Virus record (IMG/VR): IMGVR_UViG_3300017743_000027 | Span: 1-42,857 of that record | Direction: 5' to 3' (one strand) | DNA: 42,857 nt | Source of the DNA: a virus | Shown: in pieces, positions 3,110 through 32,248 of the stretch | Numbering within the stretch: the first letter of the stretch is position 1 | Layout of the letters: every line of letters starts with the position of its first letter | The notes under the pieces: generated by a model | Seen by the model: the letters and a program-made list of their open reading frames with translations, nothing else | The model's database searches: none | What the model was told of the DNA's origin: nothing | Translations under genes and position numbers: made by a program

Positions 3110-4711
3110 TTAGTATTGAATGTTTACGCTGTCTTTCGAGAAAGCTTGTTTAAATTTTTCCCTGAGAGAAAGTTGATCTTGTGTTGCATCTCCGTTGTTA
3201 TTAGCAACAACTTCTTCTTCGATTTCAGCATTCTCAATAGCCTCTTCGACAACTTCTTCAGCTGCTTCTTCGGTTACTTCTTCTGCTGAATCACTTGCTG
3301 AAGAGAGTTCTGAAATTCTTTTTTGAACTTGCTCTTCAACTTTTGCCGCAATTGATTTTTGCTGCTCTTCTTTAAAAGCTTTTGTTTTGTGTTTCCACAT
3401 TACAGAAAGTTTTTCTTTATACTTGGCGTATGCTTCGTCTGAACAATCTATTGATTTCAACTCAGAAGCCAAGATGATTCTGTCTTCGTCTTCTAACTCA
3501 AACTCGTCATCAAGATCGCTCATTCTGTCGTTAAATTTTTCTGAAGCTTCTTTTGCAGCTGCTTCTGTCTTAAGAGACTCAATCTCTTCGTTCATCGAAG
3601 CGATTTCAGATTTAAGGGATTCAATTTTCTGACCTGCTTCTTCAGTAGCTTTAGAAAGATCTTCTTTTTCTTTATTAAGCTCTTCTTTGTCAGACTGCCA
3701 TTGATCATTTTTCTGAATAATTGCGTCATGAAATACTTTCGTGATGTTGGCAATAGCCTCTTCCGAAAGTTTCTTAGATGAAGCTTGAGCTTCTAAAGAT
3801 TCTGTTACTTGTTTTAAAATTTCTTGTTCCATAGTCTTATAAGGTTTTATGTTCTTGTTATTTTTTACATCATGTTTTTTGAAATGGGAACTTTTTTCTT
3901 CAATTATATTATTTTTAATTTCAATTTTTTCATAATTGGAGCTTTCAGAATCGCCTTTCAACTTAAATTGATTCATGCTTTCCTCGCTAACTGTGAGCCC
4001 TTTTACACTTGCTGCTGGATTGGCCGTAAAGCCTATCCCTAGCGGGTATATGTCACCAACGATCAACCGATGGACTTCGTTGCCGTCGTCATCCCGTCCA
4101 TTGCCACCATAAGCTTTTAAAAATTGCTTATAATCATCTTTTTCTTCTCCAGAAATAATTTTTGCATCTTTTAAATTTGTGCTACCAACTGCGACCACGT
4201 AATCATTAAAACCAATTTCCCAACTGGCTGAAACTTTCTGGTATAGATCGCTTTCTTTATCTACAGATTTCTGGACTAACTCAGCAAATTCGGGGTTAAC
4301 TGTTTTATATATTACAGACGATAAAGCTATATTGAAGGGCTCATCGGTTGACGCAGCCTCTTCTTCACTTATGATTTCGTTAGTTTTATATCTAGACAAA
4401 GAAGTCCCAACTATATGGCCAACCACTTTTTTTCTTTGATGCTCTATATTAGTTGGCTTATGCATGAAATAGTCTTTTATAGCTATCGCTGTTTGAGTAT
4501 CTATACCATCTCCATTCTTATTGAACATATTCGCAACAGCTCCATTAAAAGCAACTCCAACTAAGTCTATGTTTTTATTAAAATCAATATCTTCTGGAAT
4601 TAAATCTCTCAATGAATCAACAGAGGCCAAAGACTCTATCTCCTCATTCTCAGGAGTAGACGCGATAACATTTTCAGAAAACTTACATATATATTTAAAA
4701 GGTAAACTCAT
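3110..4711 (-). CDS. Prohead maturation protease with C-terminal scaffold-like domain
   Basis: 533 residues with two clearly different parts. Residues 1 to about 260 form a compact domain with a His in PTNIEHQRKKVVGHIVG and a Ser in VSASWEIGF, in the order expected for herpes/T4 gp21-like prohead serine proteases; these are the likely catalytic residues. Residues about 290-515 are Lys/Glu-rich coiled coil ending in a very acidic stretch, as in scaffold or core proteins. Protease-scaffold fusions or nested genes are known in other phages; an internal start (MEQEILKQVTESLEAQ, near residue 292) could give a separate scaffold. GTGTACT lies 13 nt before the ATG region. Confidence 0.85.
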   Translation of the reverse strand: MSLPFKYICKFSENVIASTPENEEIESLASVDSLRDLIPEDIDFNKNIDLVGVAFNGAVANMFNKNGDGIDTQTAIAIKDYFMHKPTNIEHQRKKVVGHIVGTSLSRYKTNEIISEEEAASTDEPFNIALSSVIYKTVNPEFAELVQKSVDKESDLYQKVSASWEIGFNDYVVAVGSTNLKDAKIISGEEKDDYKQFLKAYGGNGRDDDGNEVHRLIVGDIYPLGIGFTANPAASVKGLTVSEESMNQFKLKGDSESSNYEKIEIKNNIIEEKSSHFKKHDVKNNKNIKPYKTMEQEILKQVTESLEAQASSKKLSEEAIANITKVFHDAIIQKNDQWQSDKEELNKEKEDLSKATEEAGQKIESLKSEIASMNEEIESLKTEAAAKEASEKFNDRMSDLDDEFELEDEDRIILASELKSIDCSDEAYAKYKEKLSVMWKHKTKAFKEEQQKSIAAKVEEQVQKRISELSSASDSAEEVTEEAAEEVVEEAIENAEIEEEVVANNNGDATQDQLSLREKFKQAFSKDSVNIQY

Positions 4712-31452: not shown

Positions 31453-31515
31453 TCATTTATTTTTTAATAAGATTAAAGCGATAACAATAGTAATAATTAA
31501 TTGAATTAAAATCAT
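31453..31515 (-). CDS. 20-residue membrane microprotein
   Basis: MILIQLIITIVIALILLKNK: a single hydrophobic segment with a basic end, very like the 18-residue one at 21704. TAATG overlap with the stop of the gene at 31515. The 130 bp after it is A+T-rich with nothing else seen. Confidence 0.58.
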   Translation of the reverse strand: MILIQLIITIVIALILLKNK

Positions 31516-31820
31516 TACGCCCTTAAGTCTTGAATAGCCTGTTTAACCTCTAGGGGTACGAAAGAGGATAAACTCATTTGGTCAAGAACTCTCGCGGGAA
31601 TAGATACGTCACGAATATAGTCTCCAGCTGCTTCTTTCTCTGAGATGATAGTCTTCACTGCAGAAGCTTCTGCGACGTCGCGACACGCTCCAAAACGCAT
31701 AAGAAGAGGAGTGCTAGGCATTTCCTTCTCTAGCACTGCAAGGTCGTCAGAGAGAACAAATCCGTATTGCTCTTTTGATATAATTTTAAGTAATGTTGCT
31801 TTAGGTAATGTTTTAATCAT
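31515..31820 (-). CDS. Small protein, unknown
   Basis: 101 residues: MIKTLPKATLLKIISKEQYG, then VLEKEMPSTPLLMRFGACRD and AEASAVKTIISEKEAAGDYI; mainly helical. No family recognised. Own promoter; the membrane microprotein follows by stop-start overlap. Confidence 0.75.
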   Translation of the reverse strand: MIKTLPKATLLKIISKEQYGFVLSDDLAVLEKEMPSTPLLMRFGACRDVAEASAVKTIISEKEAAGDYIRDVSIPARVLDQMSLSSFVPLEVKQAIQDLRA

Positions 31821-31855
31821 GAGTATACTATAATGGTTAACGGTTAATGTGTCAA
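31821..31855 (-). promoter_or_regulatory. Leaderless promoter of the unit 31820-31453
   Basis: TTGACA (31850-31855), 17 nt, TATAGT (31827-31832), 6 nt, ATG. Confidence 0.8.
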
Positions 31856-31878: not shown

Positions 31879-32212
31879 AAAAAACCCCCCTTGAATTCCA
31901 AGGGGGGCTTCTTAATAATAATATAACCTAAATAAATAGATGTGGGAGAGGATTACTGTATACCTCCGACTTTTCGGGATGAACATCAGTTCATTGAGTA
32001 CCTACTTCGCACTACAAATTAGACTTGGCATTCGTCATCGACTCATCCGATTGGACTCTATCGCTCCGCCACAGAGAATTTGCATACCTTAGCCCGCTCA
32101 TCACAGGCTTACTCAGTCACCCACAGGAAGGATTATAAGCCCTTCCAAAGTGTTTAAAATGTAAAAGATCAATTGCTTTATTTGATTTAATTGAGTTTAG
32201 CTTTCTCAATGA
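31879..32212 (-). ncRNA. Candidate structured RNA gene, about 330 nt, family not recognised
   Basis: No long frame on this strand, higher G+C than its surroundings, its own promoter (32220-32248) and a perfect terminator. Nested complementary strands seen by eye: outer TGTGGG/CCCACA (31941-31946 with 32120-32125), TGAGTA/TACTCA (31995-32000 with 32110-32115), CAAATT/AATTTG (32015-32020 with 32077-32082), hairpins CCGA/TCGG (31966-31977), TGAAC/GTTCA (31980-31993), AGCC/GGCT (32091-32109), GGAAGG/CCTTCC (32126-32146) and near the 5' end ATTGAG/CTCAAT. All are mutually compatible. It is not tRNA, and I see no tmRNA, 6S, RNase P or SRP signature. Confidence 0.72.
31885..31907 (-). terminator. 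Terminator of the candidate RNA gene
   Basis: Perfect 9-bp stem CCCCCCTTG / CAAGGGGGG with a 5-nt loop, then six T on the minus strand (31879-31884). Confidence 0.92.
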
Positions 32213-32219
32213 TTTATAT

Positions 32220-32248
32220 AGTATACTCTATTATTTGTTAAAAGTCAA
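32220..32248 (-). promoter_or_regulatory. Promoter of the candidate RNA gene
   Basis: TTGACT (32243-32248), 17 nt, TATACT (32220-32225); no ATG follows at the usual 6 nt, so transcription should start near 32212 and produce an RNA rather than a leaderless mRNA. Confidence 0.75.

Follow-up and report, generated by a model that had tools for sequence, protein, structure and literature searches.

Here, we identify an RNA gene on the minus strand of a marine phage genome as a member of the manA RNA family and report that, as judged from its sequence and that of its relatives, it is very likely organized as a stand-alone transcription unit. Because the family itself is already known, what is new is this organization, in which manA has its own promoter and terminator and is preceded by an rrn-like leader. 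The DNA analyzed, referred to here as the window, corresponds to an entire IMG/VR virus record (42,857 bases). Based on its terminase, rIIA/rIIB, PhoH, and GP88-like proteins, we assigned the genome to a tailed phage. No tRNA genes were found in the 42,857 bases, and searches with four of the phage proteins returned no close cultured relative. Similarly, a blastn comparison of the locus with annotated phages gave no match, and allowing E values up to 10 returned short matches only (E = 9). The features of the locus are collected in Table 1.

Table 1. Features of the manA locus in the window (position 1 is the first base of the 42,857-base record)
Feature	Position	Strand	Basis or remark
Promoter of the RNA gene: −35 TTGACT (32248-32243), 17-nt spacer, −10 TATACT (32225-32220)	32220..32248	−	Start expected at ~32213
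Leader hairpin ATTGAGAAAGCTAAACTCAAT, boxB-like by position	32190..32210	−	Recurrence in the clade, co-varying arms
boxA-like element GATCTTTTACA	32160..32170	−	Recurrence of GNTCTTTWANA in the clade
manA RNA core (RF01745), closing helix TGTGGG/CCCACA	31937..32146	−	cmscan, covariation
Intrinsic terminator, 9-bp stem CCCCCCTTG/CAAGGGGGG (31907-31885), then T6	31879..31907	−	
Separate promoter of the next gene, TTGACA-17-TATAGT	31827..31855	−	Ends 6 nt before the ATG
Next gene, 101 aa, outside the RNA gene (context only)	31515..31820	−	

The original prediction held that the RNA belongs to an unknown family and matches no RNA class; it proposed a search against Rfam and anticipated that a hit to a known class would rename the RNA. 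Using cmscan, we found that the core matches RF01745 with 72.8 bits (gathering score, 55.2; E = 8.9e-17) over positions 1 to 192 of the 192-position model. This match is full length. The claim of an unknown family was therefore wrong, and the RNA is manA. In the window, manA is the only Rfam family to reach its gathering score; on the manA strand, other families gave only sub-threshold matches, which lie around the terminator. A 2010 study described manA from marine metagenomes, T4-like cyanophages, and gamma-proteobacteria and considered it a riboswitch candidate that is commonly located in potential 5' UTRs (Weinberg et al. 2010, PMC2864571). The alignment was updated in Rfam 14 (PMC7779021), and a report on cyanophage S-CREM1 lists manA and states that its regulatory role still has to be verified (PMC9964418). 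In the literature that we searched, we found no function for manA; earlier remarks on stand-alone manA RNAs may exist. To our knowledge, no ligand is known for the family. Rfam gives the type of manA as Cis-reg. In the window and in most of its clade, manA is not in the 5' UTR position that this label implies, as the next gene is set apart from manA by a terminator and a further promoter; nevertheless, membership in RF01745 stands because the label is a catalogue entry outside the sequence-structure definition of the family.

With a presumed start near 32213 and an end at the T-run at 31879, the predicted transcript is approximately 333 nt long, and its fold has a free energy of −93.9 kcal/mol (z = −2.54), with 1 of 100 shuffled sequences being as stable. 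The G+C content of the core is 47%, compared with 35% for the window, placing it in the top 0.7% of 210-nt windows; thus, the base composition does stand out as originally predicted. The predicted TGTGGG/CCCACA closing helix is also present, and five of its six pairs are invariant in 42 homologues; because these five pairs never vary, they provide no covariation information. Among 42 aligned clade A sequences (see below), both-sided changes occur in 24 of 45 pairs, and 97.7% of cells are paired. Importantly, this alignment has 210 double-change cells, whereas shuffles have 52 and slid partners give no more than 39. As the structure was derived from the same 42-sequence alignment, it is favored over its slid versions, and the double-change count is the stronger point. 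The fold also shows a leader-trailer A/T helix, which we set aside since A-rich and T-rich sequences will pair by chance. In none of 44 distinct clade A and 101 distinct clade B homologues does a sense frame run open through the entire core. With every sense frame interrupted, we rejected a protein-coding reading. The outcome that the original prediction had named as speaking against an RNA gene was homologues that keep a protein frame instead of stems; among the 44 homologues no such frame is open, and the stems covary.

Relatives were gathered by pattern scans of viral and genome contigs and then checked with the Rfam model, and the loci obtained fall into two main clades. Clade A, which includes the window, comprises 58 mapped loci, nearly all of them from uncultured phages, and its complete cores are 199 to 214 nt long and mostly score 61 to 93 bits. 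The breadth of this clade should be read as a minimum, because its members were gathered with sequence patterns; as its loci are syntenic relatives, the clade A counts reported here are not counts of independent events. Clade B is the cyanophage clade and comprises 118 loci of ~190 nt, with most complete copies scoring 120 to 197 bits; it includes the copies carried by P-SSM2, P-SSM4, P-HM1, P-HM2, P-RSM4, S-SSM5, and others. One locus (L160) has two manA copies, at 130-312 and 3654-3833, that are 3.3 kb apart. Another (L128, ~839-1228) has a divergent manA-like RNA represented by two overlapping weak matches and, in the same order as in the window, a promoter-like stretch, a hairpin, GTTCTTTAAAA, and a terminator. 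We also noticed that hypothetical proteins of cluster T4-GC 428 are annotated over manA, on the same strand, in P-SSM4 (PSSM4_169.1; L273, 1566-1739) and S-SSM5 (SSSM5_127; L275, 1505-1711); these are probably not genes.

The transcription signals described in the original prediction were all recovered on the minus strand, i.e., a TTGACT-N17-TATACT promoter, which has 10 of 12 consensus matches, and a perfect 9-bp terminator stem followed by a T run; the distance between them agrees with the predicted length of ~330 nt. In the surrounding 1.7-kb region, promoter-like sites number five compared with 7.7 expected in shuffles, i.e., they are not above chance alone. The window promoter gains weight because homologues carry a promoter at the same place. 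In simple scans, for which control positions were taken from the same loci with coding DNA included, 38 of 41 clade A loci have a promoter with at least 10 of 12 matches no more than 250 nt upstream of manA (22% in the control), and 33 of 41 have an intrinsic terminator no more than 200 nt downstream (2.6% in the control). Terminator-like sites in the 1.7-kb region number four, compared with 0.9 ± 1.0 in shuffles. The terminator stems vary in sequence between clade members, arguing that their function, and not just their sequence, is kept. Three clade A members (L025, L196, and L203) have an ORF 15 to 26 nt after manA without a terminator.

The 101-aa product of the next gene has no match in Pfam or PHROG. 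Between manA and the next gene, a new TTGAC-16/17-TATACT-like promoter is present in 35 of 44 clade A loci. The ATG mostly follows the −10 element of this promoter by 6 to 7 nt, and in the window the arrangement is TTGACA-17-TATAGT-6-ATG with the ATG at 31820; this spacing predicts leaderless mRNAs in this phage group. An mRNA initiated at this separate promoter cannot carry manA. A homologous small gene lies downstream of manA in 29 of 46 clade A loci and, given this number and the synteny, there may be a regulatory link from manA to this gene. The recurrence of the promoter, leader, and terminator in the clade, together with the separate promoter of the next gene, supports the original description of a stand-alone structured RNA gene.

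Turning to the leader, a hairpin of the TTGAG/CTCAA type is present in 38 of 46 clade A loci compared with 1% of control positions, and its arms change together to give TTAAG/CTTAA, TCGAG/CTCGA, and CTGAG/CTCAG. After the hairpin, the motif GNTCTTTWANA follows in 43 of 46 loci (control, 0.4%); an exact match to the published boxA consensus GYTCTTTAANA (PMC5725501) is present in nine of the 46. The copy in the window departs from this consensus at two positions. A single boxA-like match of such kind in a 43-kb window is unsurprising alone, and the weight of this element derives from its recurrence in the clade. A promoter, a hairpin, and boxA follow one another in this order in the E. coli rrnB leader as well. 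The element is nearly absent from clade B, with 1 of 105 loci having it. Considering these sequence data, we lean slightly toward a function of the element as a boxA. Approximately half of the clade A loci have an extra hairpin-closed domain of ~50 to 210 nt between the boxA-like element and manA (L027, L037, L191, L194, L204, L211, L212, L215, L222, L235, L237, L253, and others), which is lacking in the window; the sequences of this domain vary widely, and none of those scanned reached an Rfam gathering score. The exact clade string TCTTTAACATTTTAA is present in 1 of 398 sampled Pseudomonadota genomes, where it is located away from tRNA and rRNA genes. Two clade A members sit in MAG bins named Rickettsiales and Neomarinimicrobiota, and we rejected a host assignment based on this context. 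Within the Rickettsiales, the only occurrence of the exact boxA string is at the manA leader, in the very bin that contains the manA contig; in the case of Neomarinimicrobiota, the 16S leader has no clear boxA by eye.

The cyanophage copies have a different genomic setting. For 85 of the 93 clade B promoters, the distance from the −10 element to manA is 4 to 15 nt, which places the predicted RNA start at or just before the first manA hairpin. A same-strand tRNA gene is located within 300 nt in 10 of 118 clade B loci compared with 1.55 expected, and several of these genes are 0 to 16 nt away. Moreover, a divergent relative (L125), which scores 51.8 bits and is thus below the gathering score, lies between tRNA-Gly and tRNA-Pro. 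Such placements are what one would expect if tRNA processing released the RNA. The P-TIM68 copy is followed by a gene of opposite orientation. Most cyanophage copies have a same-strand ORF shortly downstream, e.g., talC, purL, or a gene that we presume to be gp32-like and named from the start of its protein; because many of these copies run straight into genes, and the three clade A members named above also have an ORF close behind manA, some manA copies may also serve as leaders. In at least 17 of 101 clade B loci (L083, L087, L130, L138, L143, L165, L173, and others), manA is followed by the conserved element AGACCTAAGATGCAACTC..GAGTCGGGCAGATGGTCT, often with a T-run after it, ahead of unrelated genes; this element could represent either a terminator or an additional small RNA domain. 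A cyanophage-type manA of 141.7 bits is also found in an assembly of Nonlabens xiamenensis (L188; NZ_RMVE01000006.1, 56001-64000), where the same 7 kb also contain a PhotoRC-II RNA and a tRNA. This looks like cyanophage DNA inside a flavobacterial assembly and, because the contig looks cyanophage-like, Nonlabens was rejected as a host record.

From the family, the structure, and the conserved transcription signals seen in the sequence, we infer that the locus would produce a discrete RNA of ~333 nt whose synthesis is assisted by Nus factors, and we suggest that the window manA is probably a stand-alone, stable, untranslated RNA acting in trans. According to this model, the host RNA polymerase would initiate at the promoter at 32248-32220, and the nascent leader would expose the boxB-like hairpin and boxA, on which Nus factors would assemble in the manner known from rRNA leaders. 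Their assembly would shield the untranslated transcript from Rho and could aid the formation of the long-range TGTGGG/CCCACA closing helix. Transcription would then stop at the terminator (31907-31879), and a compact RNA of ~210 nt would act in trans. Because one clade has an rRNA-like leader and copies in others lie next to tRNA genes, the host translation or stable-RNA machinery is our first guess for the target, a guess that we regard as doubtful. The original prediction had named host RNA polymerase, ribosomes, and defense systems as candidate targets.

Rather than acting in trans, manA could be a cis-acting riboswitch or attenuator, in which ligand sensing by the fold would let the terminator at 31907-31885 decide on transcription of the gene at 31820-31515. 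The Rfam type is in line with such a function, as is the description in 2010 of a riboswitch candidate common in potential 5' UTRs (PMC2864571). The recurrence of a homologous small gene after manA in 29 of 46 clade A loci and the many cyanophage copies that lead into genes also fit. However, in 35 of 44 loci the terminator is followed by a separate promoter for the next gene, with the predicted mRNA start at or near the ATG, and some related copies lie ahead of tRNA genes or of a gene with the opposite orientation; we consider cis regulation of the next gene unlikely in the window.

A function residing in the leader is much less probable still. In this scenario, the boxA leader would serve as a decoy that soaks up NusB/S10 and thereby lowers host rRNA synthesis, while the manA fold would do no more than stabilize the transcript. 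The presence of the boxA-like element in 43 of 46 clade A loci is what a decoy would call for, but clade B retains the core with the element in only 1 of 105 loci, arguing that a decoy cannot be the function of the core. Moreover, a single copy per transcript would make a weak decoy unless expression were very high. Finally, taken alone, the modest z score of −2.54 and promoter-like sites that are no commoner than in shuffles could point to a chance fold, or a small protein gene could have been overlooked. We give these possibilities almost no weight given the RF01745 hit, the covariation far above the shuffled and slid controls, and the interruption of every sense frame over the core in the 44 and 101 distinct homologues. 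We retain, as the most probable, the reading of the window manA as a stand-alone RNA.

Extending this reading to the family, we tentatively propose, as a possibility that falls short of being probable, that manA, which is filed as cis-regulatory, is basically a stable trans-acting phage RNA that is made in the manner of rRNA and tRNA, i.e., from an rrn-like Nus/boxA leader in the clade of the window and by being cut from tRNA transcripts elsewhere. It would then be a viral RNA aimed at the host translation or RNA-processing machinery. manA is widespread in marine phages, including the well-studied cyanophages P-SSM2, P-SSM4, P-HM2, and S-SSM5. If manA RNAs are free-standing, hunting for a ligand that switches the neighboring gene would be the wrong experiment. 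Moreover, an rRNA-type boxA leader placed by a phage on a non-coding RNA would, if true, extend the known uses of antitermination by Nus factors.

GOLLD and ROOL are RNAs linked to phages and tRNA genes. The window RNA is loosely similar to them in that they are large structured non-coding RNAs with no known protein product (PMC12286853); however, at ~210 nt it is much smaller, and neither family has a match in the window at Rfam gathering scores. The similarity to boxB-boxA leaders of rRNA operons such as E. coli rrnB, and to other boxA sites of Nus factors (PMC5725501), is one of layout, with a promoter, a hairpin, a boxA-like element, and a structured untranslated RNA following one another. 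The window RNA is not rRNA, and the manA core does not match the rrnB leader; based on a short shared string, we considered kinship between the core and the rrn leader and rejected it because nhmmer gave no match. Within its own family, the window manA scores lower than the cyanophage copies, with 72.8 bits compared with 120 to 197 for most complete ones. It shares with RF01745 a full-length model match above the gathering score, the conserved TGACTGA..TAAGGT and GGTATACAGTAATCC stretches, and nested helices with covariation. It differs in having its own promoter, a leader with a hairpin and a boxA-like element, and its own terminator, and in being followed by a gene with a separate promoter, whereas the family has been described as cis-regulatory.
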